From assembly GCA_025965195.1 (NCBI GenBank), contig JAOPXK010000047.1, positions 1 through 33,258 of the forward strand: 33,258 nt of DNA, written 5' to 3'. The notes below the pieces were generated by a model that was not told the DNA's origin, made no database searches, and saw only the letters and a list, made by a program, of their open reading frames with translations. This DNA comes from Marmoricola sp. GTDB lineage: Bacteria; Actinomycetota; Actinomycetes; Propionibacteriales; Nocardioidaceae. The translations under genes and the position numbers were made by a program. This document shows, piece by piece, positions 1,300 to 33,258 of this stretch (position 1 is its first letter; each line of letters begins with the position of its first letter).

Positions 1300-1412
1300 G
1301 CTCTCCAGAGTTGCCTGTCCCGCGCGGTCCTTGCGCCTGAGAGGTTCCGGGGAGGGGTTGCCCCTTCGGCGCTCCGCATCGACGTACGTCGCCGGAGACT
1401 CTCCCGCGCGGT
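1300..1412 (-). promoter_or_regulatory. Glycine riboswitch aptamer upstream of gcvP
   Basis: On the minus strand the leader shows the glycine-aptamer core in order: GGGAGAG at 1400-1406, GCCGAAGGGGCAA, CTCTCAGGCGCAAGGACCG, GGACAGGCAACTC and CTCTGGAGAG (1301-1310). This is one complete aptamer. No second GCCGAAGG-type core is visible before the start codon, so it looks like a singlet, perhaps with a degenerate 'ghost' stem after it. Position 5' of gcvP fits the known role of turning on glycine catabolism when glycine is high. Confidence 0.93.
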
Positions 1413-1420
1413 GTGTCAGC

Positions 1421-4262: not shown

Positions 4263-4649
4263 TCAGGACGAGACGGTCGCCTCGTAGGCGGCGGCGTCCA
4301 TCATGTCCGGCGTGGCAGCACCCTCGGCCGGCACGATCTCGAGCAGCCAGCCGGCGCCGTACGGGTCGGAGTTGACCAGCTCAGGAGTGGCGTCGAGGGA
4401 GTCGTTGCGGGCAACGATCTCACCGGCGATCGGGGCGTAGACGTCGCTGACCGACTTGGTCGACTCGAGCTCGCCCACTGCGGCACCGGCCGCGACCGTC
4501 TCGCCGACGTCGGGAAGCTGCACGTAGACGATGTCGCCGAGGGCGTCCTGCGCATAGTCGGTGATGCCGATCCGCACCGAACCGGCGTGCTCTCCGGGAT
4601 CGCGGACCCACTCGTGTTCGGCGGTGTACTTCAGGTCTTCGGGAAACAC
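4263..4649 (-). CDS. gcvH: Glycine cleavage system H protein
   Basis: 128-residue lipoyl carrier that shuttles the aminomethyl intermediate from GcvP to GcvT. The family string LKYTAEHEWV is at the N-terminus. The lipoylated lysine is K65 in ELESTKSVSD, followed by GEIVARN, NSDPYGAGW and a terminal helix. GTG at 4649 is preferred to the in-frame ATG at 4673. AGGAG lies four bases before it, and the product then has the usual family length. A TAGGTT box is 45 bases upstream. The gene follows the DUF881 gene on the same strand, as Rv1826 does. Confidence 0.95.
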   Translation of the reverse strand: MFPEDLKYTAEHEWVRDPGEHAGSVRIGITDYAQDALGDIVYVQLPDVGETVAAGAAVGELESTKSVSDVYAPIAGEIVARNDSLDATPELVNSDPYGAGWLLEIVPAEGAATPDMMDAAAYEATVSS

Positions 4650-4693
4650 GGCTCTCCTGGGGCTGCTGGGCACGGGGTTCGGCTGTGCTGGTC

Positions 4694-13304: not shown

Positions 13305-14186
13305 TCAGGCGCCGGCAGCGGTGACGATCGCGTCGGTGAGGAAGCCGGCGACCAGGCCGATCAGGATGCCGTAGGCAAGGATGTCGGCCTTCTTCGCACG
13401 TGAGGCAACTCCGATGAGCTGGGTGATCACGTAGAGGATCGACCCTGCGGCCAGTGACAGGAACACCACACTGACCGGCTCGCTGGTGAAGCCGTGGCCG
13501 ATGATCGTGCCGAGGAAGGTCGGCCCTCCTCCGATCGCGCCGAGGGCAAGCAGGAAGCCCCAGCTCGGCCGACGCGCTGCGCCGTCACCGTCCAGGTCTC
13601 CGGCAAGTGGCGCGACGATCCCGAATCCTTCGGTGGCATTGTGCAGCCCGAAGCCGATGACCAGCATCACGGCGAGCCCGATCTCACCGCTCGCGGCGGA
13701 CTGGCCGATGGCGAGGCCCTCCGCGAAGTTGTGCAGCCCGATGCCGACGGCGATCATCAGCGCCAGGCGGCGGGCGGCCGACCAGGACTTGATGCCCCTG
13801 GACAGTTCGGGATCTCCGATCACGACGGAGCCGGGACCCTGCCGCCCGGCCACGTCGGCCGGCTTCCGGACCTGGCTGCCCATCCAGCGCTCGTACCAGA
13901 CCAGCGAGAGCAGTCCGACAGCAAGGCCGGCGAACATCAGCGAGCCGTAGCCGACCGCGGATCCGATCTGGTGGTCTCCCCCGTGCGTCGCGGCCAGCGC
14001 GCCGTCGATGGGCTCCCAGGCGGCCGAGAGCACGTCCCAGACAAGGAACAGCAGCACCCCGATGGCGATCGCGTTGAGCAGTTGGCGCAGCGTCGGAGCG
14101 GCACCGCGGAGCCGGCCGACCGGCAGGCCCAGCACGATGGTGCCGCCCGCGATCAGACCCAGGAGCAGGGTCGTTGACAGGCTCAC
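13305..14186 (-). CDS. ZIP-family divalent metal transporter
   Basis: 293-residue polytopic membrane protein. The paired metal-site helices are LHNFAEGLAIG and LHNATEGFGI (HNxxEG motif twice), the core of the ZIP transport channel. A long loop between the third and fourth helices is polar. GTG at 14186 is chosen because GGAGG is five bases upstream; the open frame reaches 14210. A DtxR/IdeR-like box lies 38 bases before this start, overlapping a TAGGTT -10. Expression is therefore predicted to be iron-repressed, pointing to ferrous iron, or iron plus manganese, rather than zinc. The gene follows GtrA on the same strand but is likely transcribed on its own. Confidence 0.87.
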   Translation of the reverse strand: MSLSTTLLLGLIAGGTIVLGLPVGRLRGAAPTLRQLLNAIAIGVLLFLVWDVLSAAWEPIDGALAATHGGDHQIGSAVGYGSLMFAGLAVGLLSLVWYERWMGSQVRKPADVAGRQGPGSVVIGDPELSRGIKSWSAARRLALMIAVGIGLHNFAEGLAIGQSAASGEIGLAVMLVIGFGLHNATEGFGIVAPLAGDLDGDGAARRPSWGFLLALGAIGGGPTFLGTIIGHGFTSEPVSVVFLSLAAGSILYVITQLIGVASRAKKADILAYGILIGLVAGFLTDAIVTAAGA

Positions 14187-14223
14187 GGCTACCTCCACGG
14201 GCGATCGCACGCACCCTGCGCGC

Positions 14224-14242
14224 AGAGGTAAGGCTAACCTAA
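14224..14242. promoter_or_regulatory. DtxR/IdeR-like iron box upstream of the ZIP transporter
   Basis: The 19-mer agrees with the palindromic DtxR/IdeR consensus TTAGGTTAGGCTAACCTAA at 16 of 19 positions; the right half, GGCTAACCTAA, is perfect. On the minus strand TAGGTT (14236-14241) inside it can serve as the -10 of the ZIP gene, so a bound repressor would block polymerase. Confidence 0.72.
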
Positions 14243-16396: not shown

Positions 16397-17233
16397 CTAA
16401 TCACTTGTTCCGAACTCGGACACGTCAACGAGCTCTGTCCGGTCCTTCTGGGTCTTGGTGAGGTACACCACGACAGCGAAGATCGTGCCGAGGAACAGCA
16501 CGCTCGTTCCGAGGGTGCCGAGCCCGAGCCCGCCGTCGGCGTGGTTCGAGGCGAGGTAGTCGCCGATGTTGGCACCCAGAGGCCGGGTGAGGATGTAGGC
16601 GAGCCAGAAGGTCAGCACCGGACCGGCCCCGACCTTCCAGGCGGCGAACACCGCGACGATCAGGCCAGCGGGCAGCAGGATCGACGTGCCGGGCGACCAG
16701 CCGGTGAGCTCCAGGGTCCAGTCGCCGACGGCGGTGCCGAGAGCGAACGTCACCAGCACCGTGAGCCAGTAGAAGGACTCCCGCGGAGTCGTCACGATCG
16801 AGTGGATGGACAGGGTGCGCTCGCGGGTGTACCAGACGCCGAACACGGCGGCGAGGAGGAGGCCGAAGACCGTGGTGCTGATCCAGAGCGGCACGTTGTG
16901 ACCATCGGTGAGGTTGTCGGTCAGCAGGGTTCCGACCACGCTGATCAGGACGACCGCGAGCCAGTAGACGCCGGGCACGTACAGGCGCAGCCTGAACTGG
17001 GCGACGAGCACGGCGACCAGCGCGGCCGAGAACACCAGGGTGGTGTTGGTCAGGCCGAAGCCCAGGGTTTCGTTGATGTAGTCGGCGAAGCTCTCTCCGA
17101 CCGTGGTGCAGAGGATCTTGATCACCCAGAAGTAGATCGTCACCTCGGGGACCTTGTTCAACATCTCTCGGCGGCGGCTTGCTGCTTGCGTTGTCGTCGT
17201 CATTGGCTGAGCCTGATCGGTCGGCCCTGACAT
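16397..17233 (-). CDS. DUF347 repeat membrane protein (COG4705-like)
   Basis: 278 residues made of four repeats of two membrane helices each. The repeat signatures are visible as KVPEVTIYFWVIKILCTTVGESFADY, RLYVPGVYWLAVVLISVVGTLLTDNL, ESFYWLTVLVTFALGTAVGDWTLEL and a more degenerate fourth with LAYILTRPLGANIGDYL. Each repeat has a (T/G)-x-(G)-(E/D) type turn and a conserved aromatic residue. The function is unknown; a transport role is only a guess. ATG at 17233 overlaps the upstream stop as TAATG, so it is coupled to the GT-C gene. An ATG at 17203 is an alternative start. Confidence 0.75.
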   Translation of the reverse strand: MSGPTDQAQPMTTTTQAASRRREMLNKVPEVTIYFWVIKILCTTVGESFADYINETLGFGLTNTTLVFSAALVAVLVAQFRLRLYVPGVYWLAVVLISVVGTLLTDNLTDGHNVPLWISTTVFGLLLAAVFGVWYTRERTLSIHSIVTTPRESFYWLTVLVTFALGTAVGDWTLELTGWSPGTSILLPAGLIVAVFAAWKVGAGPVLTFWLAYILTRPLGANIGDYLASNHADGGLGLGTLGTSVLFLGTIFAVVVYLTKTQKDRTELVDVSEFGTSD

Positions 17234-18717
17234 TAACCTGACCAGATCCTGAGAACGGATGGCTCCACGCACGGTTTCCCCTGCCGCGGCAGCGGCCGGT
17301 CGATGCCGTCACGGAGGTAGATGGATCGTCCGCAGATCTCGGCGACCGCCCGGTAGCGGGAGTGAACCGTCGCGACCAGCTGCTCGAGCCGCCGTCGGGG
17401 AAACGATGGCCGATCCCAGGACACGAACCACGTCGGGGCGTTCGGCCCGTGCAGGGTTCGCTCGAGAACCGTGAGCCGAGGATCCAGCGTCTGCGCGGGG
17501 AGGGTCCACAGGTAGGGGTACGGCGAGGAGAGGCCGGACGAGCTCACTGTCTCGGCGTCCCCGAAGGCGCTGATGATGCTGTCACCCGGTTGCGCCGCCT
17601 GTCCGATCGCGCCACCGATCGTCGTGCCCGGCTGCCGGGAATGCAAGGTCAGCCCGATGCCCCACCCGACGACCGCAACGGCCACGATGACGACACCGGC
17701 CGGACGGACCAGGCGGAGTTCGGCACCGATCAGCAGGCCGACCGCGATGGACACCGGGACAACCGCCTCGACCAGGTAGTGGGTCCAGAAACCACCGCCG
17801 GCGAGCATCGAGGTCGTCGAGTAGGCGATCGTGGCGAGCACACCCCAGGCCGCGGCGCCACGGATCCGCCTTCTGAGCAGCGCCCAGGCGAGGGCGAGGA
17901 GCACGACGGGTGCTCCGCTGAGCGCCCAGGTCACCAACAGGGCGTGAAGCCGCCTGGCGTCGGCAGCGCCGCTGTGCTCGGCGATCACCTGGGCCGCCTT
18001 GATCCGGAACGGATAGGTCGCGTCGTACACGCCCGCCAGCGACGATCCGTGCAGGACGGTCCAGCCGCCGACCACCAACAGGGACGCGAGAGCTCCTGCG
18101 GCCGCCGAGACGAACAGGGTCGGCCGCCGCCGGCCGCTCACCAGCCAGCTGACGAGTGCGAACACGAACACCTCGGCCATGTTCTGCTTGACGAGCAACG
18201 CAGCGACCGCACAGGCACCCGTTCCGAACGCGCACCATCGGGCCCGACCCGCTCCCAGTGCGTGACAGGCCGCGATCGCCGCCGCAATTCCTGCGGCGAT
18301 GAAGGGCGCCGCGAGCAGTTCGCCGTTGACCTGAACCGTGCCCAGCAGCGGACAGGCGAGCAGGACGCCGGTAACGACAGCCGTCCAGCCGGCTGCGCGA
18401 GCGCCTGCGACCTGGCGCACAGCCGACGCGGCACCGACGACGGCGAGAGCTGCGGCCACGGCTCCGATAACTCGAAGACCCGGCAGGCCGCCCAGCGCGG
18501 AGGCGAGCTGGAAGATCGCGATCAGCAAGGGCGGCCGGTCGACCCAGTAGTGGCTGTAGAGCGAGGGCCCGCCGGCATGCCATTGCTGCGCGACCGCCAG
18601 GTAGCCACCCTCGTCGGAACCCTCGGACGTGCCCACGAACGGAAGCCGGAGGATCATCACCAGGAGGGCAGCGAGCAGTACGACGCGCCGCTCGCCTGCG
18701 ACTCGAAGGCCTGTCAC
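17233..18717 (-). CDS. GT-C-fold membrane glycosyltransferase (ArnT/PMT-like, family 39/83 type)
   Basis: 494 residues with roughly ten to twelve hydrophobic segments. The first external loop carries SDEGGY (34-39), the acidic motif of polyprenyl-phosphate-dependent glycosyltransferases. YWVDRPPLL (57-65) follows, matching the ArnT/PMT_2 'DRPPL' pattern. The C-terminal 110 residues are soluble and external. It should transfer a sugar from a polyprenyl-phosphate donor to an unknown acceptor outside the cell. GTG at 18717 follows the histidine kinase stop by 30 bases, and its stop overlaps the DUF347 start. Control by the upstream two-component system is likely. Confidence 0.8.
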   Translation of the reverse strand: MTGLRVAGERRVVLLAALLVMILRLPFVGTSEGSDEGGYLAVAQQWHAGGPSLYSHYWVDRPPLLIAIFQLASALGGLPGLRVIGAVAAALAVVGAASAVRQVAGARAAGWTAVVTGVLLACPLLGTVQVNGELLAAPFIAAGIAAAIAACHALGAGRARWCAFGTGACAVAALLVKQNMAEVFVFALVSWLVSGRRRPTLFVSAAAGALASLLVVGGWTVLHGSSLAGVYDATYPFRIKAAQVIAEHSGAADARRLHALLVTWALSGAPVVLLALAWALLRRRIRGAAAWGVLATIAYSTTSMLAGGGFWTHYLVEAVVPVSIAVGLLIGAELRLVRPAGVVIVAVAVVGWGIGLTLHSRQPGTTIGGAIGQAAQPGDSIISAFGDAETVSSSGLSSPYPYLWTLPAQTLDPRLTVLERTLHGPNAPTWFVSWDRPSFPRRRLEQLVATVHSRYRAVAEICGRSIYLRDGIDRPLPRQGKPCVEPSVLRIWSG

Positions 18718-22890: not shown

Positions 22891-23740
22891 GGCCGGCGTC
22901 CGGGATGTCACGTCCCGGCCACGCCGCCTGTCCACACGCTTCCTCCGCTCGGAGCTCGGGCTGGTGTTCGGCCGGCGCCGCAACCAGGTGGGGCTCGTCG
23001 TCCTCATCGGGCCGCCGGTGCTGATCTCGATCGCGGTGAAGTCGTCCGCGTCCCGGCCGGGCCGTGGCGCACCGGACTTCTTCAGCTCGATCACCGAGAA
23101 CGGGCTCTTCGTGGCGCTCGCCGCGCTGACCATCGAGATGGCGCTGTTCTTGCCACTGGCGGTGGCAGCCGTCTCGGGTGACTCCGTTGCGGGCGAGGCG
23201 AGCACCGGCACCCTTCGGTATCTGCTCACCGTGCCGGTCGACCGGCTGCGGCTGCTGGCGGTGAAGTACGCCGGCATCGTCGCGTTCGCCTTTGCGGCGA
23301 CACTCGTCGTCACGGCAGCAGGCGTGCTGATGGGTGTGGTGCTCTTCGGCGGAGGCAACCTGACCCTGTTGTCGGGGAGCCAGATCGGCTTCGGCGCCGG
23401 CCTGCTCCGGGTGTTGGCAGCCGCTCTCTATCTCGGCTGCGGATTCGCAGCACTCGGGGCGGTCGGGCTGTTCGTGTCGACCCTCACCGAACAGCCGATC
23501 GGCGCAACGCTGGCGACGGTGATCTTCAGCGCCGCCAGCCTGATCGCCGACAGCATCCCGCAGGTGAGCTGGGTGCACCCGTATCTCATCACCCACAACT
23601 GGACAGCCTTCGGGGACCTGTTCCGCAGCCCGATCGCCTGGACCGGGATCGAGCACGGCCTCTACTCGGCTGCCGGGTACATCGTGGTCTTCTTCCTCGC
23701 CGCCTGGGCACGCTTCTCCACCAAGGACGTGACCAGCTGA
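22877..23740 (+). CDS. ABC transporter permease (ABC-2 type)
   Basis: 287 residues with six predicted membrane segments after a basic N-terminus. The conserved GEASTGTLRYLLTVPVDRLRLL region (about 114-135) is typical of ABC-2 type permeases that work with DrrA/BcrA-like ATPases. ATG at 22877 has GGAGG six bases upstream and lies inside the ATPase 3' end. The convergent small membrane gene ends 13 bases beyond its stop. Together with the LolA-like protein it makes a three-gene unit whose cargo is unknown. Confidence 0.87.
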   Translation: MSAVEAGVRDVTSRPRRLSTRFLRSELGLVFGRRRNQVGLVVLIGPPVLISIAVKSSASRPGRGAPDFFSSITENGLFVALAALTIEMALFLPLAVAAVSGDSVAGEASTGTLRYLLTVPVDRLRLLAVKYAGIVAFAFAATLVVTAAGVLMGVVLFGGGNLTLLSGSQIGFGAGLLRVLAAALYLGCGFAALGAVGLFVSTLTEQPIGATLATVIFSAASLIADSIPQVSWVHPYLITHNWTAFGDLFRSPIAWTGIEHGLYSAAGYIVVFFLAAWARFSTKDVTS

Positions 23741-23753
23741 CGCGGCCGGATGC

Positions 23754-23969
23754 TCAGCGACCTCGTCTGGTCACCCGGTAGATGCTCACCGGGAGCAGCA
23801 CCACGACGAGCGCCGGCAGCAGCCACCAGAAGGCTCCGGACGTGGAGTGGGTCAGCCAGTAGGTGCCGGCCAGGCCGAGCACGACGCCGACGGCGACCCG
23901 CCAGTCGTCACCGATGATGAAGTCATACCAGAACACGCCGAACGACTTGAACCAGCCGAGGACCTTCAT
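23754..23969 (-). CDS. Small membrane protein, 71 aa
   Basis: Two hydrophobic helices (about 24-40 and 46-64) with an aromatic N-terminus (WFKSFGVFWYDFIIGDDW) and a basic tail (RVTRRGR). The ATG overlaps the stop of the preceding ExxE membrane protein by 4 bases, so it belongs to the flavin electron-transfer operon. The family is not recognised. Small double-span proteins at the end of redox or transport operons often are accessory subunits; that is inference. Confidence 0.7.
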   Translation of the reverse strand: MKVLGWFKSFGVFWYDFIIGDDWRVAVGVVLGLAGTYWLTHSTSGAFWWLLPALVVVLLPVSIYRVTRRGR

Positions 23970-24736
23970 GCCGCACCGGCGCTCGTGCGCGACGCCGTCG
24001 GCAGGTCCGGAGCACCGTTCCTGCCGAAGACCACGACCAGGACCGCAGCGAACACGGCTACGGCCGGGACGATCGCGAGCAGGCTCGCGTCGGAGTGCGG
24101 CCAACGGGCACCCGCCCCCTCCGAGCCCCAGAACATCCCGAACGACGTGAGCATCACACCGACGACAAACTTCAGGGTGTTCTCGGGGACCCTGGCGAGT
24201 GGCGCCCGCACGACGACGCCGGCGGCCACGACGAGCAGCACCGCGACGAGGGCGGCGAGAGCAGCGAGCGGGATGTTTCCCTGGTTGCTGCCGAAGGTCA
24301 GCACGATGAAGACGACCTCGAGGCCTTCGAGGACGACGCCCTTGAACGACAGCGTGAACGAGTACCAGTCCGGCACGAACGCGCGGGCCTCCGCGCTCGC
24401 CTGCCGCGCGGCTTCGACGCTGGTCCGGAAGATCTGCTCCTCGTCATGCATGGCCTTGTGGCCGCTGGCGCGCAGGACGGCCTTGCGCAGCCACTGGAGT
24501 CCGAAGATCAGCAACAGCCCGCCGACGAAGAGCCGCAAGTCGCTGAGCGGGATCAGCCGCACGGCGGGACCGAGCACGGCCACGACGGCGGCCAGCAGCG
24601 CCAGCCCGGCGAACATGCCGATCACGGTCGAGCGCCAGTCCCGCGTCGTGCCAACGGCCAGGATGATCGTCAACGCCTCGACGGCTTCGACCAGGCACGC
24701 CAGCAACACCGCAAGGAAGAGTGCGGATCCGCTCAC
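23966..24736 (-). CDS. Duplicated polytopic membrane protein with paired ExxE motifs (COG4280-like, FTR1/TerC-reminiscent)
   Basis: 256 residues, about six to seven helices in two similar halves. Half one has CLVEAVEALTIILAVGT (E17, E20) and later LRLFVGGLLLIFGLQWLRKA. Half two has VVLEGLEVVFIVLTFGS (E137, E140) and then LKFVVGVMLTSFGMFWGSEG. The two ExxE pairs are exactly 120 residues apart. ExxE in a first helix recalls the REGLE motif of FTR1 iron permeases, but the arginine is missing. A soluble loop (about 92-122) separates the halves. GTG at 24736 has GGGAG six bases upstream and overlaps the FMN-binding protein stop (GTGA). A metal-ion permease is plausible but unproven. Confidence 0.72.
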   Translation of the reverse strand: MSGSALFLAVLLACLVEAVEALTIILAVGTTRDWRSTVIGMFAGLALLAAVVAVLGPAVRLIPLSDLRLFVGGLLLIFGLQWLRKAVLRASGHKAMHDEEQIFRTSVEAARQASAEARAFVPDWYSFTLSFKGVVLEGLEVVFIVLTFGSNQGNIPLAALAALVAVLLVVAAGVVVRAPLARVPENTLKFVVGVMLTSFGMFWGSEGAGARWPHSDASLLAIVPAVAVFAAVLVVVFGRNGAPDLPTASRTSAGAA

Positions 24737-25257
24737 GACGTACTCCCGTTGAAGTGCGCCGCGTCGAGTGCGGCCTGGAGGGACTGTCGATATCCGTCGG
24801 ACGTGTACGTCGCACCGGAGACCGTGTCGATCTTCGCGCTCTGTGCGCTCAGCGTCTCGCTGCCGAGGACCGGGAGGGCCTGGTCGTTGATCTCCTGGCT
24901 GCGTCCACCGTCCTGGGGATAGTCGAGCACCGTCGTCTTCGTGATCCGCTGAGCCTGGATCGTGACCTGGATCTGGATCGGCCCGTACGGAGTGCCGATG
25001 GACGATCCGTTGACGACGACCACGGCGGGATTCGCCGAAGGGGACGGAGCAGGAGACGTCGTTGATCGCGACGACTTCGGCGTCGCGGGTGGTCCGGACA
25101 CCACTCCCACCGGGGCCAGCGGCTGGCCGGGTGTCCGGTGCGCGGTGGACTTGTCGGTGCTCGTCGGGTACAGCATCAGCAGGCCGACCACGGCGACGCT
25201 GCCCGCGAAGACCGCGGCATTGCGCCGTCCACGCGCAGCGAGGTTTGCGGTCACCAC
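24733..25257 (-). CDS. Exported FMN-binding domain protein with covalent flavin site
   Basis: 174 residues. An N-terminal anchor (14-30) is followed by a Pro/Ser/Thr-rich linker (32-77), then an FMN-bind domain (about 78-170). DTVSGATYTS (144-153) fits the ApbE flavinylation motif, with Thr150 as the likely FMN attachment residue. It should carry covalent FMN on the outer face and receive electrons from the membrane reductase. GTG at 25257 has AGGAG eight bases upstream and lies within the reductase 3' end. Neighbouring apbE supplies the modifying enzyme. Confidence 0.88.
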   Translation of the reverse strand: MVTANLAARGRRNAAVFAGSVAVVGLLMLYPTSTDKSTAHRTPGQPLAPVGVVSGPPATPKSSRSTTSPAPSPSANPAVVVVNGSSIGTPYGPIQIQVTIQAQRITKTTVLDYPQDGGRSQEINDQALPVLGSETLSAQSAKIDTVSGATYTSDGYRQSLQAALDAAHFNGSTS

Positions 25258-26672
25258 GTGAAGCGCTCCTGGTGAACCCGGTCCCGCTGCGCCCCTGCAC
25301 GCAACGCCGCGCGGGTGGCAGCATCCATCCAGGCGTCCGGGCCGCAGATGAAGATGTCAGTCGCGCCGATGTCGGGCAGCAGCCGGAGCATGGCGACGCT
25401 GTCGCTGAGGTGGGCAGCCTGGTCGGGAAGCCAGCTGTCCCTGCCCGGGATGCGGGAGCCGGTGAGGTAGTGAACGGTGATTCCGCGGCGCCGGGCCAGC
25501 TGGTCGAGCTCGTTGCGGAAGATCAGGTCCTGTTCGCTTCGGGCCCGGTAGACCAGCGTTGCGTTGCCCGGCTCGTAGTCGAGGTCCTCCAGCAGGGCCC
25601 GCATCGGGGTGATGCCGATCCCGGACGCGAGCATCGCCACCTTGGCGCCGACCCGCTCCTGGCCGGTGAGCTTTCCGTAGGGCCCCTCGAGCAGCACCTT
25701 GGTGCCTGGCCGGAGACCGGCGAGCCGGCCACTGCCGTCACCGAGGTCCTTGGCGGTGATCTGGATCCGGTCGTAACGCGGAGCGGCCGACAACGAGTAC
25801 GGGTTGCCGCCGGACCAGCCGGGCCCGTCGAGGAAGCGGAAGATGAAGAACTGCCCGGACTGCACCGGCAGCCGGTTCAGGCCGCGGCCACCCATCCGGA
25901 CCGTGACCACGTCGTGGCTCTCGCGTACGACGTCGGTGACGCTGATGCCGTGCCGGAGCGTCCTCCAGATCGGTAGGCCCAGCCGGAAGAGCACGACGGC
26001 GCCGGCCGCGGTCGCATATGCCGACCACCAGTAGATGCGGGCGACCGGATGGGCGATGAAGTCCGCACCGGTCCAGATCTGGTGAGGAACCGCGAGTCCG
26101 ACACCGGCGTAGGCATAGAGGTGGAGCAGGTGCCACGACTCGTAGCGCAGCCGTCGGCGGGCGACCCGAACCGAGGTGACCGTCACGACCGTGAGCGCAA
26201 TGGTGCCGGCGAGGGCGATCAGCATCCCGGCGTACGACGTGAGGATCGTCCAGGTCTCGCCGAAGACATTGCGATGGTCGGCCAAGGTGTAGCCGAGCGT
26301 GATCAGGATGATGTGCAGGATGAGCAGGTTGAACGACCAGAAGCCGACGAGCCGGTGCTTGCGCGCAAGGTCGTCGTGCCCATAGCTCCGCTCGACGACG
26401 GGGACCCTGGCCATCAGGAACACCTGCACCAGCAGGAGATCCGCCGCCAGCAGCCCGCTGAGCCTGCCGAGTGACGTCAGCTGGTCGGCACGGTTGAGAG
26501 CGAGCAGCGGCAGACCGCGCCCGCTCACCCACAGCCCGACCACGATCAGGACGCTCAGCAGGGTCGTGACGGCAATGGCGTCGCGCCACCATCGCGGAAC
26601 AGGGCGCACCCGAGCGGTCTCGACCGCTACGTGGACGGGCGAGCTCCGACCGTCTTGGACCATGCCCCGCAT
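25251..26672 (-). CDS. Ferric-reductase-type transmembrane flavohaem oxidoreductase
   Basis: 473 residues. The N-terminal six-helix domain has candidate haem-ligand histidines at 106, 120, 181, 184 and 197 (RKHRLVGF, LHIIL, WHLLHLY, VPHQIW). The FAD-binding part has GNPYSLSAAP (289-298), the usual RxYS with Asn for Arg. The NAD(P)-binding part has ASGIGITPMR (349-358) and CGPDAWM near 446, with the Trp-ending tail of this group. It should move electrons from cytosolic NAD(P)H through FAD and two haems to the outside. The start is ATG 26672, with 26663 as an alternative. It lies 9 bases after apbE and overlaps the FMN-binding gene. Confidence 0.9.
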   Translation of the reverse strand: MRGMVQDGRSSPVHVAVETARVRPVPRWWRDAIAVTTLLSVLIVVGLWVSGRGLPLLALNRADQLTSLGRLSGLLAADLLLVQVFLMARVPVVERSYGHDDLARKHRLVGFWSFNLLILHIILITLGYTLADHRNVFGETWTILTSYAGMLIALAGTIALTVVTVTSVRVARRRLRYESWHLLHLYAYAGVGLAVPHQIWTGADFIAHPVARIYWWSAYATAAGAVVLFRLGLPIWRTLRHGISVTDVVRESHDVVTVRMGGRGLNRLPVQSGQFFIFRFLDGPGWSGGNPYSLSAAPRYDRIQITAKDLGDGSGRLAGLRPGTKVLLEGPYGKLTGQERVGAKVAMLASGIGITPMRALLEDLDYEPGNATLVYRARSEQDLIFRNELDQLARRRGITVHYLTGSRIPGRDSWLPDQAAHLSDSVAMLRLLPDIGATDIFICGPDAWMDAATRAALRAGAQRDRVHQERFTW

Positions 26673-26681
26673 GCCTTGACG

Positions 26682-27473
26682 CTAGTGCGGAAAACCTGAC
26701 GCTGACCTGACTGCCGTCGCCCATCCGGGCGTCGTCGCGCTGGTGCCGTCCGGAGCGATCGCCAGGCCGTCGTACCCGGGCGTCGAGGCGAGCAGTCGCA
26801 GCCAGCCGTCCCCGGCGACGAACGCGGCCGTCGCGAGCACATCGGCCAGCTCCAGGCTCGGCCCGACAACCGTGACGGACAGCCAACGGGCGGCCACCGA
26901 CGCGCCGCTCCGTGGGTCATACACGTGTGCTCCGCGAGCAGCGGTGCCGCTGGTCGCGACGGCGCCACCGAGCCTCTCGATCGCGTGCAGGACACGGGCC
27001 CCATCGCGGGGATCCTGGATGCCGACGGTGAACGGCAGCCCACTCGGTGCGAGGACCACCACGTCTCCCCCGGCGTTCAGGCACCAGTCCAGATCCGACA
27101 CGTCAGCCAGGTGACGAGACGCCCGCTCCGCCGCCCAGCCCTTCACGAGACCCGAGGGATCCCACGTCCTTCCGGGAGTGATGGGGTCGAACAGCCCGCC
27201 GGTCAGTCGCGTCGCCGAAGCGCACCGCCCCGCCACGTCACGGACATCGGGGTGACAGTCCTCGAGCGACTTCTCGCCACGCGCCAGCATCCTCACCTCA
27301 CTGCTCTCGATGTACGGCGAGAAGAGCTGGTCAACCTCTCGGAGCTCGGCGAACATCGTTGTCACGGCCCTGTCCGCTTCCTCCGACATCGCCCTGGCAC
27401 CGCGCGCGAGCACGCTGATCGGCAGGCCCATGATCTGCTCGACCCAGCTGCGACGTACTCCCTCAGTGGACAC
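26682..27473 (-). CDS. apbE: FAD:protein FMN transferase (ApbE)
   Basis: 263 residues. ApbE cleaves FAD and attaches FMN to Thr/Ser of exported proteins. Family strings are EVDQLFSPYIESSEV (46-60), LFDPITPG, DPSGLVKGWAAER (105-117), NAGGDV (133-138) and the Mg-site helix ELADVLATAAFVAG. The probable target is the FMN-binding protein at 24733-25257. No clear signal peptide is visible; a start at ATG 27431 would be shorter still. GTG 27473 begins two bases after the carboxylase stop. The gene leads the electron-transfer part of the operon. Confidence 0.92.
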   Translation of the reverse strand: MSTEGVRRSWVEQIMGLPISVLARGARAMSEEADRAVTTMFAELREVDQLFSPYIESSEVRMLARGEKSLEDCHPDVRDVAGRCASATRLTGGLFDPITPGRTWDPSGLVKGWAAERASRHLADVSDLDWCLNAGGDVVVLAPSGLPFTVGIQDPRDGARVLHAIERLGGAVATSGTAARGAHVYDPRSGASVAARWLSVTVVGPSLELADVLATAAFVAGDGWLRLLASTPGYDGLAIAPDGTSATTPGWATAVRSASGFPH

Positions 27474-27475
27474 GG

Positions 27476-30400
27476 TCAGTGCGCGCCGAGCCCTCGTTCG
27501 ATCACGGCGATGATTTCGGGCCGCAACCGCTCGGCTGCGATGACCGCGTCGACCGAGCCCACCTCGACGGCCCGGTGGATGTTGTGCACTCCGTCGAACT
27601 CTGCGGCGACCTCGCTGATCTTCTCCGCCCGGAGCATTGCCCGGAGCTCGGCCAGCTCCACGACCAGCCGGCTGCGCTCCGGTCCGGAGGCCTCGGCCAC
27701 CCGGGCCTCCAGCTCGCGAACTCCCGGATTCGCCGCCGTCCGCTTCTCGACCTCACCGGCGAACACCACAGCAGCCGCCGGTGCACCTCCGATCACGGAG
27801 GCGAACGAACCTTCGAGCGCGAGCACGGTCATGCTGGGGTTGAGCGCCTTGGAGAAGACCACGAACGCCCCACCGTGATAGCGCGAGATCACGCAGAAGA
27901 CGATGGGCCCGACGAAGTTGACGATCGCGCGACCGATCTCCGCGCCGTACTCCAGCTGGAGGTTGCGCATCGAGTCCGGCGACCCGTCGAAACCCGACAG
28001 GTTGGCCAGCACCACGAGGGGCCGGTTGCCGCTGGCGACGTTGATCGCCCGGGCTGCCTTCTTCGACGAGCGGGGGAACAGCGTCCCGGCGGTGTAGACG
28101 TCCGGTCCGTCGGTGGGCGGGAACCCCCGCCTCGGCACGGGCCGCGACTCGATGCCGAGCAGGCACACGGGATAGCCACCGAGGTGAGCATCCTGGACGA
28201 CCGCGGTCTCTGCGTCGGCCATCCCGGCCCAACGCTCGAGCGTCGGGTGGTCCTGATCGGCCAGCGCCCGCATCACCGTCCGGATGTCGAAGGCCTTCTT
28301 GCGGTCGGGGTTGGTCACTGCCGAGAAGATCTCGCCGACGGTTCGGAAGTCACTGCCGTCGATGGCGTGCGGGTAGGTCGTGATGTCGCGGTCGATCGGG
28401 TCGCTGGAGGGTTTCCGCCGCGGCCGGGACTCTCCCGGCACGACGTAGGTGTGGTCGTAGTGCGACATCAGCACGTCGAACGCGCCCGACAGATCTGGAG
28501 CCCAGTACTGCGCCTGGCCATTCGGCCCCATCACCCGGTCATAGCCGCCGATGCCGAAGTTGTCCTCCGCCGAGACGCCGCCCGAGAAGTCCAGCGACTG
28601 CTTTCCGGTGAGCACCATCGCACTGTCGGGCGTCATCACCAGGATCCCCTTGGTGTGCATCAGCATCGTCGCCTCTGCGTTCCAGTACGGCTGGGCACCG
28701 ACGTTGATGCCGGCCACCACAACGTTGATCTCGCCGCCCGCCTGGGTGAACTCGATGATGCGCCGAAGCCCGGCCGCGACCCAGTCCATGTTCTCGGTGC
28801 CGGAGTCCATCGAGATCCGGGCGCCGGCGGACAGGGCGTACCACTCCACCGGGACCTGCATCCGCTCGGCCAGGTCGATGGCGGCGATCACCCGCGAGCA
28901 CTCAGGTTCGGAGACCGCGCCCAGTGCCATCGTGGGGTCACCACACAGCACCACCCGGGTGACACCTTCGGGATAGAGCCGGGTCGGCGTCGTCACCACC
29001 GCAGCGAGGATGCCTGCCTTGTTCAGACCGCGGGGGCGGTCCACCGGGACGAGTGCGCCGGTGTCGTCCAGGTCGTGCTCGACCAGCGTGCCCCCCGGGC
29101 CGGCCAGCATGTCGGCGAGCTCATAGGGATAGACCAGGCCGCGCCGGCTCGCCCGGAGCACCTTGGCCGCATAGTCGTCGAGCGGCTTGAGCCGCTCGGT
29201 CGGCGGGGAGTCGATCGAGGACACCACGCCGGCGCCGGCTGCCTTGGAGAACCGGATCATCACGGGCACCTCGGAGCCGTCCGGACCTGCCACCCGGCCC
29301 TGAGCAACAACCTCGGCGATCCCGGCGCCGTCGGTCAGTGGCGTGATCTTCTCCTGCAGCGAGGTCAGCTGATGAACGTCGGCTTCGACCACGGGCCACA
29401 CGTGCACCCAGACATGGTTGGTGTCCAGCTTCGCGCCCGCTGCACCACGCGCCGTCCGGGTCCGCCGGATCGCCTCCAGGCAGTTCTCGACAGCGCGCTC
29501 GGCATGCGGAAGCGCGATCACCTCGCCGCGCTCGTCACGGACCACGGCGAGCTGGCGCACCTGCGCGAGAGCAACGAGTCGCCGGTCGGCCGGGTTGTCC
29601 TTCGCAACACATTCATAGAGGAGCACGTCGGCGGGAGCGTCGATCCTGGTCACGTCGAAGTCGAGGAGCCGCCACAGGTTGAGCCTTCGCGCGACCATCG
29701 GGTGCACGCCGCGGACCCGGTAGTCCTCGGCAACGGCACGGGTATCACCATCCTCCGCAGGACGGAACGTGAAGTAGCTGACGGGACGGTTCGAGCCCGG
29801 ACAGACCGCGATCGTCAACCGTCGTACGACGTGGGCGAACGCGAGTCCGTCCACCAGGTTGCGGAGCTCATCGCTCGCCTCCTGCGCCGACTCGGGAGCC
29901 TCTGGCCAGTAGAGGTAGAGATCGACCGCCGACTCGTCCCCTTCGAGACGGGCGTCGACCTGCTCGGCGACGGTGGCGCTGAGCGAGGAGTCCGGACCAG
30001 CCAGCTCAGCCACCGTGCCGATGCTGGAGACCAGCCGGGTCGGCCGGTCGTCGAGGGTGTAGTCGGCGACCACGAGGGGACGCCCCTCCGAGTCCAGGGA
30101 CCTGAGGTCGTGCAGCGCGAACTCGCGATAGTGACGCTTGACGAGCACCTCGAGCATCGGCTCACGCTTGAGCGCCTGGTCCGGGCCACTCTCCAGCCGC
30201 TCGGCGAGGAACTGGACGATCTGCTCGGGAATCGCGGCGAGCGCGTCGATCCGCGCAACCCGGTTCGGTGCGTCGGCGTCGGCCGCGAGCGCGGCCACCT
30301 CGTCACGGACCCCGGCCAGCACGCTCGACCGCTCCTGGTCGACCAGGGGCTGGTCGAACCAGCGGAACCGGACACTTCGCGCCAGGTCGCCGACGACGGG

Positions 30401-33013
30401 GAACCTGAGCTGGGTGGCCCGGACCAGGCGCTCGAGCAGGTCACGGGTGACCACCGCGAGCTGGCCCTCGGGCGGTGCCTCACCGCTCCACCGCTGGAGG
30501 AGCGCCACCACCATCTGCAGCTCGGGGGCCGAGCGCTGCTGGGCAAGGAAGATCCGGAACACCGCTTCTTCAAGTGCTGTCGAACGTTCCAGGTCGGTCA
30601 CGCCGTAGTGCGCGAGGACCGTGGCCAGCCGACTCCGGAAATGCGCGGGCAGGTCTCCACGCTCGGCGTCGAGACTCTGCAGGTAGGTGTGGAAGTGCTC
30701 CTTCGAGCTGTGCACCCGGAGCTCGGTGTTGCGCTCCTCGTTGGCCGGATGGTTGCGGCTGAGCTCCGCGAAGTCGGTGAACAAGCCGAGCAGTGCGGCT
30801 TCGTCGGCGATGACATCGACCCCTGCTGCCCGCAGTTCGTCACGAGCGGCGAGGTAGCCGGCCAGGGCCACGCCGTCCTCGTCGTGGGCGAGGTCGAAGC
30901 CGCAGAGCAGCGCGGAGAGGTCCGCACGGCGGCGCGCGGCCCGGCGCTCCGGGGACGGCTCGTTCGCCTCCGGGGGCAGGTCCAGTGCCGGACCGGCCTG
31001 GGACACGACCGGCGTCTCCTCGGCGCTGTCGTCGACCGGCTCCAGCCGGACCAGCGGCGCGCCGGTCTCCACCTGGCTTCCCGTCATCACCAGGAGCTCG
31101 CGAACCCGAGCCGTGAACGGCGCGTGGATCACGGTCTCCATCTTCATGCTCTCCAGCACGAGGATGGGTGCGCCCGCTGCGACCACGTCACCGACCGCAG
31201 TGGGAGTTGCGACGACGAGCGCCGGAGCGGGCGAACGCAGCACGCCACCCTCGTCCCGGCTGACCCGGTGAGTGACGCCGTCGACCTCCACCATGTGCGT
31301 GGGGCCGTGCGTCGCAGCGACGATGCGGTATCTCCGTCCAGCGACAACGAGCCGGGCGTGGAACTCGTCGATCCGCTCGATCACCGCGTCGACGACCTGG
31401 CTGATGTCCCCCGCGGCGACGCTCACGCGGTAGGCGTTCGGGCCGGTCTGCACCGAGGTGACCCGGTACGTCGCCCCTCGCAGCTTGAGGTCGACGGGAT
31501 TGCCGACCTTGTGCTGGACCTGGGGCCGACCACCGTGCGCGCTCTGCAGGAGCCGGGCCACCTCGACCAGCATCTCCTCCTGGTAGGCCTCGATGGCCGC
31601 CATCACCAGTGCGATCCCGGAGTGCTCCTGGGCGACCAGGCGGCCCTCCTCGCGAACCCGGTCGATCCAACCCGTGTCGGCCCAGCCGCCGGCGCCGTCG
31701 ACGACCTCGGGCTGGCTGAGCAGGTCGAGGATGAACCCCTTGTTGGTGGCACCGCCCTCGATGACCACCGTGGTCTCGGCCATCGCTCGCCTCAGCCTGG
31801 CGAGGGCCTCTTCGCGGGTCGGCGCGTAGGCGATGATCTTCGCGATCATCGAGTCGAAGTCGGCGGGGATGGTGTCGCCCTCGCCCACCCCGGTGTCCAC
31901 CCGCACGCCGGGCCCGGCTGGCAGCTCGAGCCGGAGGATGCGACCGGGCGCGGGCGCGAAGTCCCGGTCGGGGTCCTCGGCATTGAGCCGTGCCTCGATG
32001 GCATGACCCTTCTCCCCGGGCCTGTCGCCCTCGAGCCTGCCGCCCGCTGCCACCTGGACCTGGGCCTTGACCAGGTCGAAGTCGGTCGTCATCTCGGTCA
32101 CGGAGTGCTCGACCTGGAGGCGGGTGTTGACCTCGAGGAACGCGAAGGTCCCGTCGCCGGGGTGGTACAGGAACTCGACCGTGCCCGCACCCGAATAGCC
32201 CACGGCCACGGCGAGCCGCTCGGCCGCTGCCTTGAGGTCGGCCGTCTGCTCCGGGGTCAGCAGCGGAGACGCCGACTCCTCGATCACCTTCTGGTTGCGG
32301 CGCTGCACCGAGCAGTCGCGGACGCCGAGAGCCCAGGCGGTGCCATGGCTGTCGGCGATCAGCTGGACCTCGACATGGCGTGCGCCCGTGACGAGCCGCT
32401 CGAGGAAGACCACTCCGCTGCCGAAGGCACGCTCGGCCTCGTCACGCGTGCGCTGGTAGGCGTCCTCGAGGTCCCTGGCGGTGGCGACCATCCGGATGCC
32501 GCGTCCGCCACCACCGGCCGTTGCCTTGAGCATCAGTGGATACCCGACGGACTCGGCTGCGGCGAGCGCGTCCTCGAGGGTGTCGACGGCTCCCCGGCTC
32601 CATGGTGCGACGGGGACGCCGACCTCCTCGGCGATCAGCTTGGAGCCGATCTTGTCGCCCAGCTTTCGCATCGCGTCGGCACTCGGCCCGATGAAGGCAA
32701 TGCCGAGTCGGTCGCACAGGTCGACGAAGGCCGGGTCCTCGGCCACGAATCCCCAGCCCACCCAGACCGCGTCGGCCTCGGTCGCGATGAGCGCACGCTC
32801 GAGGACGGCGAGGTCGAGGTACGGTCGGGCCGCTGCCGGACCGATCGAGTAGGCCACGTCGGCCTCCCGAACGAACATCGCGTTGCGTTCTCCCTCGGTG
32901 TACAACGCGATCGTCGAGACTCCCGCGCCACCGGCGGCATTCAGCTCCCGGACGGCATGGATGAACCGCATCGCGGCCTCTCCGCGGTTCACGATGGCGA
33001 TACGAGAGAACAT
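27476..33013 (-). CDS. Single-chain multidomain acetyl/acyl-CoA carboxylase, eukaryote-type domain order
   Basis: 1845 residues. Order: biotin carboxylase (about 1-455, ATP-grasp loop KATAGGGGRG at 163-172, EVNTRLQVEH at 294-303); linker/BT region (460-560); biotinyl carrier domain with LESMKMET, biotin on K624; a central region (about 690-1270) whose later part (VARRLNLWRLLDFDV, LLYECVAKDNPADRRL) resembles the eukaryotic ACC central domain; carboxyltransferase (about 1275-1830) with RGLVYPYELADML, GARISMD and ANLSGFDGSPDSM. It makes malonyl-CoA or a related acyl product. ATG at 33013 has GGAGGG seven bases upstream. Actinobacteria usually use separate AccA/AccD subunits. apbE follows after two bases. 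Confidence 0.9.
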   Translation of the reverse strand: MFSRIAIVNRGEAAMRFIHAVRELNAAGGAGVSTIALYTEGERNAMFVREADVAYSIGPAAARPYLDLAVLERALIATEADAVWVGWGFVAEDPAFVDLCDRLGIAFIGPSADAMRKLGDKIGSKLIAEEVGVPVAPWSRGAVDTLEDALAAAESVGYPLMLKATAGGGGRGIRMVATARDLEDAYQRTRDEAERAFGSGVVFLERLVTGARHVEVQLIADSHGTAWALGVRDCSVQRRNQKVIEESASPLLTPEQTADLKAAAERLAVAVGYSGAGTVEFLYHPGDGTFAFLEVNTRLQVEHSVTEMTTDFDLVKAQVQVAAGGRLEGDRPGEKGHAIEARLNAEDPDRDFAPAPGRILRLELPAGPGVRVDTGVGEGDTIPADFDSMIAKIIAYAPTREEALARLRRAMAETTVVIEGGATNKGFILDLLSQPEVVDGAGGWADTGWIDRVREEGRLVAQEHSGIALVMAAIEAYQEEMLVEVARLLQSAHGGRPQVQHKVGNPVDLKLRGATYRVTSVQTGPNAYRVSVAAGDISQVVDAVIERIDEFHARLVVAGRRYRIVAATHGPTHMVEVDGVTHRVSRDEGGVLRSPAPALVVATPTAVGDVVAAGAPILVLESMKMETVIHAPFTARVRELLVMTGSQVETGAPLVRLEPVDDSAEETPVVSQAGPALDLPPEANEPSPERRAARRRADLSALLCGFDLAHDEDGVALAGYLAARDELRAAGVDVIADEAALLGLFTDFAELSRNHPANEERNTELRVHSSKEHFHTYLQSLDAERGDLPAHFRSRLATVLAHYGVTDLERSTALEEAVFRIFLAQQRSAPELQMVVALLQRWSGEAPPEGQLAVVTRDLLERLVRATQLRFPVVGDLARSVRFRWFDQPLVDQERSSVLAGVRDEVAALAADADAPNRVARIDALAAIPEQIVQFLAERLESGPDQALKREPMLEVLVKRHYREFALHDLRSLDSEGRPLVVADYTLDDRPTRLVSSIGTVAELAGPDSSLSATVAEQVDARLEGDESAVDLYLYWPEAPESAQEASDELRNLVDGLAFAHVVRRLTIAVCPGSNRPVSYFTFRPAEDGDTRAVAEDYRVRGVHPMVARRLNLWRLLDFDVTRIDAPADVLLYECVAKDNPADRRLVALAQVRQLAVVRDERGEVIALPHAERAVENCLEAIRRTRTARGAAGAKLDTNHVWVHVWPVVEADVHQLTSLQEKITPLTDGAGIAEVVAQGRVAGPDGSEVPVMIRFSKAAGAGVVSSIDSPPTERLKPLDDYAAKVLRASRRGLVYPYELADMLAGPGGTLVEHDLDDTGALVPVDRPRGLNKAGILAAVVTTPTRLYPEGVTRVVLCGDPTMALGAVSEPECSRVIAAIDLAERMQVPVEWYALSAGARISMDSGTENMDWVAAGLRRIIEFTQAGGEINVVVAGINVGAQPYWNAEATMLMHTKGILVMTPDSAMVLTGKQSLDFSGGVSAEDNFGIGGYDRVMGPNGQAQYWAPDLSGAFDVLMSHYDHTYVVPGESRPRRKPSSDPIDRDITTYPHAIDGSDFRTVGEIFSAVTNPDRKKAFDIRTVMRALADQDHPTLERWAGMADAETAVVQDAHLGGYPVCLLGIESRPVPRRGFPPTDGPDVYTAGTLFPRSSKKAARAINVASGNRPLVVLANLSGFDGSPDSMRNLQLEYGAEIGRAIVNFVGPIVFCVISRYHGGAFVVFSKALNPSMTVLALEGSFASVIGGAPAAAVVFAGEVEKRTAANPGVRELEARVAEASGPERSRLVVELAELRAMLRAEKISEVAAEFDGVHNIHRAVEVGSVDAVIAAERLRPEIIAVIERGLGAH

Positions 33014-33034
33014 GCGTTGACCCTCCGGGAGGCA

Positions 33035-33054
33035 CGTTCGCGTCATCGCGAACG
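33035..33054. promoter_or_regulatory. Perfect palindrome upstream of the carboxylase gene
   Basis: CGTTCGCG-TCAT-CGCGAACG has 8-base perfect arms. It is centred about 32 bases before the carboxylase ATG. The size and symmetry fit a TetR-type operator, but an RNA hairpin in the leader is equally possible. No identity of the regulator can be inferred. Confidence 0.5.
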
Positions 33055-33129
33055 GGTTCTGTTGTCGAGGCTGCCATGCCGCTTGGGTTACGGGCGAGTC
33101 ACATAGCCGTGCGGCGGGGAATCTGCCGA

Positions 33130-33258
33130 TTACAACCAGTCGGTCTTCGTGTCGAGCGTGGTCCTGTCGAGGCTCGCGAGCAGGTCGAGCTGTGGGCCGG
33201 TCTTCGGCAGCTCGTAGCGGAAGAAGTACGCCGCGGCCGCACGCTTGCCGTCGTAGAA
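33130..33258 (-). CDS. Acyl-CoA dehydrogenase, C-terminal end only
   Basis: The last 42 codons of a gene entering from the right edge, ending TAA. FYDGKRAAAAYFFRYELPKT followed by LDLLASLDRTTLD and the terminal DW-L matches the C-terminal extension of FadE5-type acyl-CoA dehydrogenases, where a helical FY-GK-AAARYF segment precedes an ELP turn and a short acidic tail. It would oxidise acyl-CoA with FAD. The gap to the carboxylase start is 116 bases, including the palindrome, so the carboxylase probably has its own control. Confidence 0.68.
   Translation of the reverse strand, partial: FYDGKRAAAAYFFRYELPKTGPQLDLLASLDRTTLDTKTDWL

Follow-up and report, generated by a model that had tools for sequence, protein, structure and literature searches.

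A Putative Two-part ExxE Transporter Joined to a Flavin-based Electron-transfer Gene Cluster in Marmoricola sp.

Does a run of overlapping genes that joins a flavin-based electron-transfer chain to a putative membrane transporter encode one reductive metal-uptake system, or two modules placed end to end? The question is raised by a contig of Marmoricola sp. (JAOPXK010000047.1, assembly GCA_025965195.1), analyzed here over its full 33,258 nucleotides (nt) and termed the window. Five genes lie head to tail in a minus-strand block (27473..23754) and encode, in order, ApbE, a ferric-reductase-like protein, an anchored FMN-binding protein, a membrane protein with two ExxE motifs, and a 71-residue membrane protein. 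A first-pass annotation of the sequence had proposed that external FMN reduces a metal ion, which the ExxE protein then carries into the cell. The analysis presented here makes it likely instead that this lineage has brought two independent modules together in a single transcription unit.

RESULTS

Pairing of the ExxE Protein with the 71-Residue Protein

The gene for the ExxE protein (P0001; positions 23966..24736, minus strand, 256 residues, GTG start) overlaps by 4 nt that for the 71-residue protein (P0002; 23754..23969, minus strand), in which the sequence FxxFWYDF[IV][VI]GDDW is followed by two membrane helices and to which a Pfam scan of the five proteins assigned no family. The occurrence of the pair elsewhere was assessed in a pool of fetched loci that, after removal of 12 duplicates with an identical 400-nt core and exclusion of the window, comprised 134 distinct other ExxE loci. 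The small partner was encoded separately downstream in 108 of these loci and fused to the ExxE protein in 14; it was cut by a contig end in 3 and undetected in 9. Eleven of the 14 fusions belong to one clade, those of L065/L082 and L114 lie apart, and one is found in a complete genome (L075, IMCC25003). The pair also occurs on plasmids of Rhizobium and Mesorhizobium, where its genes likewise overlap by 4 nt. Among 296 genomes of the phylum, all 12 P0002 matches with E < 1e-4 lay beside a P0001 sequence, as did two of seven weaker matches (E up to 0.01), the other five lying elsewhere.

Given the 14 natural fusions, the 71-residue protein reads as a transporter subunit. The first-pass annotation had left it unexplained; it is now accounted for by the ExxE protein, of which it is the usual downstream neighbor and, on sequence grounds, a subunit, and this is the strongest result of the present work. 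As far as searches of open-licence literature extend, the pair is apparently an undescribed two-part transporter family. Neither PF16955 (OFeT_1) nor COG4280, which we take to be the name of the ExxE family, was found mentioned in that literature, and a small second subunit for OFeT_1 was not met in the sources consulted on the family.

Sequence and Predicted Structure of the Pair

The ExxE protein matched OFeT_1 at 27.6 bits (gathering cut-off, 26.9) over residues 6-206 of 256, and all 15 aligned family members matched the same model at E ≤ 0.1. Its two halves aligned with one another in hhalign (probability 95.8, E 7e-9), ExxE upon ExxE, in agreement with the duplication recognized in the first-pass annotation. 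Within the motifs V16-E17AVE20 and L136-E137GLE140, the glutamates E17, E20, E137, and E140 are invariant in 56 sequences, as are V16, L136, R84, K85, and R89. The AlphaFold2 model (mean predicted local distance difference test score (pLDDT) 89.0, predicted template modeling score (pTM) 0.72) contains helices at residues 3-31, 34-59, 64-90, 124-151, 155-180, 185-207, and 215-239, together with a loop helix at 99-112. These give seven membrane helices arranged as 3 + 3 + 1, with E17/E20 in helix 1 and E137/E140 in helix 4. The modeled protein thus contains the two three-helix repeats of the LysE/iron-lead transporter type and, given that the number of helices per repeat is odd, the repeats would be inverted in the membrane.

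In the 71-residue protein, F17, D21, D22, and S62 are invariant in 27 sequences. An AlphaFold2 model of one natural fusion (L077; pLDDT 87.9, pTM 0.80) placed the P0002 part in a helix at 275-291, followed by helices at 295-314 and 318-340. The distribution of charge suggests a cytosolic location for the C terminus of the ExxE protein and likewise for the N terminus of the 71-residue protein, in keeping with the fusions; the start of the FWYDFIVGDDW helix and the two membrane helices is probably on the cytosolic side as well.

The OFeT_1 match and the 3 + 3 + 1 model point to the ExxE protein as probably a metal-type permease, and family resemblance and gene neighbors make a divalent metal the likely substrate of the pair. 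To this extent the metal-permease reading of the first-pass annotation stands; the reductive reading that it built around the permease is unsupported as a general system (see below). Comparison with known permeases revealed both likeness and difference. The window protein lies above the OFeT_1 cut-off by a very marginal score and differs from that family in its small second subunit. With FTR1/EfeU (PF03239) it shares two ExxE motifs, located in helices 1 and 4 of the window model and presumably in the same helices of FTR1/EfeU. REXXE is the FTR1 motif, and the FTR1 of a relative carries REGLE twice; by contrast, the VEAVE and LEGLE of the window protein lack the Arg, and its score was 12.1 bits versus 25.3. 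EfeO, EfeB, and a ferroxidase were all absent from the window's five genes. The likeness to TMEM165/GDT1 (PF01169) consists of an hhalign match to one half of the ExxE protein, whereas the GDT1 motif, described as E-x-G-D-[KR]-[ST], is absent, and the score of 17.7 bits (versus 27) fell below the cut-off. Compared profile to profile, the ExxE family was slightly closer to GDT1 (E 8e-4, probability 24) than to FTR1 (E 0.013, probability 3), VIT1 giving 0.2 as a control.

The Flavin Module

The first gene of the block (26682..27473, minus strand, GTG start) encodes ApbE, an FAD:protein FMN transferase of 263 residues (PF02424, 1.3e-32); G108, G112, G135, G136, D137, S175, G176, D211, and T215 are invariant in 37 aligned ApbE sequences from such gene triads. 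The second (25251..26672, minus strand) encodes a ferric-reductase/NOX-like membrane flavocytochrome (P0004) with an NAD(P)H-binding domain. Its ATG at 26672 gives 473 residues and a 9-nt gap after apbE; an alternative ATG at 26663 would give 470 residues and an 18-nt gap. Pfam identified Ferric_reduct (PF01794, 1.5e-14) and a C-terminal NAD_binding_1 domain (PF00175, 3.7e-09) at residues 344-449, and haem-type histidines are retained among 41 aligned reductases (His103 and His117 in 40 each, His181 and His194 in all). The third gene (24733..25257, minus strand, GTG start) overlaps the second by 7 nt and the ExxE gene by 4 nt. Its product (P0003) is an FMN-binding protein (PF04205, 8.4e-11) with a putative N-terminal anchor or export signal (a hydrophobic 19-mer from residue 14, Kyte-Doolittle 1.84) and the flavin motif D144-T-V-S-G-A-T150, in which Thr150 is the predicted flavin site. 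Among 41 aligned sequences, position 150 is Thr in 39 and Ser in 2, and position 144 is Asp in 40.

The coordinates and Pfam results confirm the five gene identities, the minus-strand placement, and the spacings given in the first-pass annotation, and the DxxSGAT site that it named is present. Homology likewise upholds the electron chain that it proposed, running from NAD(P)H to the anchored flavoprotein. It had also rightly set the last two genes outside that chain, the ExxE/71-residue pair being a separate unit. The predicted passage of NAD(P)H electrons to an anchored, externally facing FMN can be regarded as well founded.

Sequence relatives of the ferric-reductase-like protein in the PDB comprise FNR-type reductases, flavohaemoproteins, and NOX2 (cytochrome b-245 heavy chain), as well as a "FAD-binding FR-type domain" (8qt6/8qta) that we take to be a bacterial NOX. 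Such relatives would suit an NADPH oxidase of the bacterial type, with oxygen as the electron acceptor and with the flavoprotein and the transporter as bystanders. Of 196 genomes examined in the order, 76, among them that of the window, contained a match to the reductase (E ≤ 1e-30). In 40 flavin loci chosen from reductase or FMN-binding protein matches, the reductase stood with an FMN_bind gene in every case and with ApbE in 36, as in published clusters, and the oxidase is for this reason a highly improbable explanation. A response regulator and a histidine kinase lay between ApbE and the reductase in 13 of the 40 loci. The FMN-binding gene gave two tandem matches in L206-L218 (13 loci of one large-genome genus) and in L227, where the FMN carrier has probably been duplicated.

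MsrQ-like clusters, as described previously (Meheust et al. 2021, PMC8238504), comprise a PF01794 membrane protein, often with a C-terminal PF00175 domain, an FMN-binding gene, and apbE, and are broadly conserved in Actinobacteria. The window has a PF01794 protein with C-terminal PF00175 together with apbE and an anchored FMN-binding protein, and by homology its flavin module is a standard, already described actinobacterial MsrQ-like flavinylation cluster.

As a separate observation, the window ApbE has no hydrophobic export signal ahead of its MGLPIS core, which begins at residue 15, and a hydrophobic stretch before the core was found in none of 35 triad ApbEs (the window and the L206-L245 set), two of which have fewer than 17 residues there. 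The enzyme thus apparently lacks an export signal, whereas the protein on which it acts is anchored and presumed external; either flavin would be attached before export, or export would be unconventional. In MsrQ-like clusters, the ApbE signal is considered dispensable if the FMN-binding protein carries one. Export of a pre-flavinylated protein by the twin-arginine translocation (Tat) pathway was considered, but Arg-Arg preceded the anchor in 26 of 38 proteins and RRxPhiPhi in 13 of 38, too weak a signal to claim.

Relation of the Pair to Flavin Genes

In the reductive reading, Thr150-bound FMN is the reductant for Fe(III) or a different ion outside the cell, and the ExxE/71-residue transporter imports the reduced ion. 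It is favored by same-strand, overlapping genes and by the OFeT_1 match, and the same logic has been published. The proposal of an iron-uptake role for such chains is thus already in print: the VIT1 iron transporter occurs in 153 of 1797 MsrQ-like clusters, from which iron reduction and uptake were proposed, and the logic extends to 260 P19/FTR1 clusters with an FMN-binding gene (PMC8238504). The window differs from the former in that its transporter is the ExxE/71-residue pair rather than VIT1. Like the latter, it has an FMN-binding gene beside a permease of the iron-lead transporter type; unlike them, it has no P19 (PF10634) among its five proteins, has a permease other than FTR1, and includes an electron chain across the membrane.

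The co-occurrence survey that the first-pass annotation had itself proposed came out against this reading. Profiles for the three flavin proteins revealed no flavin genes adjoining the pair in any of the 134 other loci; the single match was in L063, from a Frankia metagenome-assembled genome, where FMN-binding and reductase genes lie 9.1-9.7 kb away with other genes between. The upstream stretch was at least 1.4 kb in 118 of the 134 loci, and adjacency could have been missed in the other 16. Conversely, neither P0001 nor P0002 was detected in the 40 flavin loci (tblastn, E ≤ 1e-3). In favor of the reading, 12 of 29 other genomes of the class with P0001 also had a P0003 match listed, the two draws of genomes being different, but every P0003 match listed in those 12 lay on another contig than P0001 or was 1.5 and 2.4 Mb distant. 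In addition, the window genome owns a separate FTR1.

The window operon is therefore the only place found in which the pair directly follows flavin reductase genes, and one junction cannot demonstrate functional linkage. Reductive uptake is possible as a local invention only, is not supported as a general system, and is on balance unlikely. Slightly less likely again is the more specific proposal that the pair was recruited here as the permease of a flavin-based reductase, yielding a reductive metal-import operon without ferroxidase, P19, or VIT1. As the FMN-binding gene overlaps the ExxE gene by 4 nt, co-expression of the flavin genes with the pair is nevertheless very likely.

Gene Neighbors, Regulation, and the Candidate Ion

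Neighboring genes were inspected in 96 pair loci with longer flanks, of which at least two repeat the same contig. An ABC ATPase and permease lay directly upstream of the pair in the same direction in 21 loci, accompanied by a binding protein in 18 of the 21, and a ChrB_N-type gene was found within five genes of the pair in 33. Pfam scans covered 61 of 63 upstream and 61 of 63 downstream neighbors; among the 25 commonest families listed, ABC_tran was assigned to 21 of 61 upstream genes and ChrB_N to 10 of 61 upstream and 21 of 61 downstream, which makes ChrB_N the commonest neighbor overall.

The upstream importers, of the Fe3+/2-aminoethylphosphonate type, are the neighbors that would favor reductive uptake. 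Their identification as FbpABC iron importers was rejected. All NCBIfam scores fell below the cut-offs (one example per subunit, three loci); the best-scoring models were PotA for the ATPase and 2-aminoethylphosphonate models for the other two subunits. PDB matches of one binding protein included a phosphonate binder and many iron binders. Because 15 of 18 binding proteins (one of them a fragment) have no Tyr-Tyr pair, the importer is not termed an iron importer here. As an individual observation, a YHYYW stretch was present in L056 (2742-3824) only; we take it to resemble that of ferric-binding proteins. The importers beside the pair may not share one substrate. Boxes fitting what we assume to be the IdeR consensus were not in excess over mononucleotide shuffles within 6 kb upstream of the pair in 93 loci: the best real fit had 4 mismatches (L087), and shuffles reached 3 once in 465.

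The ChrB neighbors invite a different reading, in which a GDT1-like pair under ChrB-type control serves in metal export or metal stress and stands beside the flavin genes for expression only. The pair on the Mesorhizobium plasmid sits near chrB, chrA, and crcB, most of the plasmid relatives listed carry the NCBI annotation TMEM165/GDT1 family, and the profile comparison slightly favors GDT1. ChrB is described as a chromate-resistance regulator, the N-terminal part of which has been proposed to bind DNA (PMC3817168) or to have kinase activity (PMC2751784), and one of these two sources reports that partial ChrB proteins are non-functional. No paper treating ChrB together with GDT1/TMEM165 was found in open-licence literature, as judged from the entries listed. 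Against export stand the missing ExGD[KR][ST] motif and the sub-threshold GDT1 score. Moreover, no riboswitch, and hence no manganese riboswitch, was found at gathering score in 59 of the pair loci, at least one of which was counted twice (L067 and L252), and ChrB_N was not found in the window genome, a weak point as control genomes gave none either. Because of the ChrB neighbors and the GDT1 resemblance, export or metal tolerance is about as likely as reductive uptake, and it too is on balance unlikely. The window genome encodes a separate GDT1 and gave no match to VIT1.

Distribution and Origin of the Pair

The transporter pair is spread over several phyla. Counting the window's own genome in each case, relatives of P0001 were found in 17 of 296 genomes of the phylum (E ≤ 1e-10), 30 of 394 of the class, and 10 of 245 of the family (E ≤ 1e-20 for both). 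By contrast, none of 23 genomes of the same genus contained one. The wider collection scan considered the best 80 of at least 534 loci and covered part of GTDB.

In a quick tree of 131 sequences (the window and the 130 of 134 other loci with a long enough stretch), the window P0001 grouped with Pseudonocardia L073 and L087 and Mycobacterium L109, with a Shimodaira-Hasegawa-like approximate likelihood ratio (SH-aLRT) of 93, under the tool's 95 star. An ABC importer lies upstream of the pair in L087. Of the nine other family genomes with P0001, seven (L271, L276-L281) fall in another clade, L275 lies elsewhere, and L282 is outside the tree. The place of the window protein in the tree, together with its absence from the 23 genus members, suggests that the gene was gained horizontally and then became joined to the flavin genes. 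The pair probably arrived from a Pseudonocardia-like source and, judged from its grouping with the Pseudonocardia copies, the junction is probably recent.

Other Features of the Window

A carboxylase-like gene (33046-27476) of 1856 amino acids stops 2 nt ahead of apbE, so that the transcription unit may reach further upstream; its product has an N-terminal biotin carboxylase and a biotin-carrier-like stretch near residues 577-669. A simple scan for sigma-70-like promoters gave none in 23600-33258, which says little for a high-GC organism. A DUF347 membrane protein is encoded at 16397-17272; in the neighbor survey, 10 of 96 loci had a DUF347-type cluster no more than five genes from the pair, in L063 it lay directly upstream, and DUF347 was assigned to 2 of 61 upstream genes. 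An IdeR/DtxR-box match with 3 mismatches (14224-14242; mean 0.01 expected, a match in 1 of 100 shuffles) lies 13 nt before the first start codon of a ZIP-family frame (13305-14210, minus strand, PF02535), which suggests an iron- or manganese-controlled ZIP transporter elsewhere in the window. A glycine riboswitch aptamer (1315-1416, minus strand, 69.7 bits) is present, and the window also encodes a GcvH-like protein, named by eye (4263-4673).

DISCUSSION

The reading favored here, of two modules in one transcription unit, can be formulated as follows. NAD(P)H would reduce the flavin that the ferric-reductase-like protein holds in its cytosolic domain; the two haems of this protein would carry electrons over the membrane to the FMN that ApbE is predicted to attach to Thr150, and the anchored FMN-binding protein would then reduce an acceptor outside. 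The pair would form a two-subunit membrane transporter of the LysE/iron-lead transporter type, with a 3 + 3-helix repeat and one ExxE motif per half. It would have been gained horizontally and now trails the flavin genes with a 4-nt overlap, such that both modules should be made together.

Several findings weigh against this formulation. The small partner escaped profile detection in nine loci (L049-L052, L054, L130, L143, L268, and L270); of these, L049-L051 contain a small downstream frame of 68 or 82 residues, one with a DDG stretch, L143 gave a P0002 match by tblastn, and L054 holds a P0001 fragment only. Membership of OFeT_1 was attained by only 0.7 bits, the profile likeness to GDT1 and to FTR1 is weak alike, and a profile search of solved structures gave none at E ≤ 1. 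Foldseek matched the ExxE model to no PDB entry at E ≤ 0.001, and VIA-align gave middling helical-bundle matches only for this model and the fusion model, the best for the ExxE model being BbZIP (Z 8.9, root mean square deviation 5.5 over 110 residues), within the chance range for helical proteins; for this reason no fold is named. The quick tree has 41 open forks of 128. A tight 4-nt overlap between the FMN-binding and ExxE genes would be expected of functionally linked genes, which leaves a chance join uncertain. Finally, the window genome is a 200-contig assembly, and the junction was seen in that genome only; given that the genes overlap on one contig, an assembly artefact is unlikely.

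The flavin half of the operon is known biology; novelty lies in the transporter, one partner of which, the small protein, had gone unrecognized under the label of hypothetical protein. Because natural fusions exist, a subunit role for this protein can be tested, and the neighboring ChrB and ABC-importer genes provide entry points to the ion transported. In the window operon itself, nature supplies a setting in which to ask whether permeases besides VIT1 and FTR1 can be fed by flavinylated reductases.

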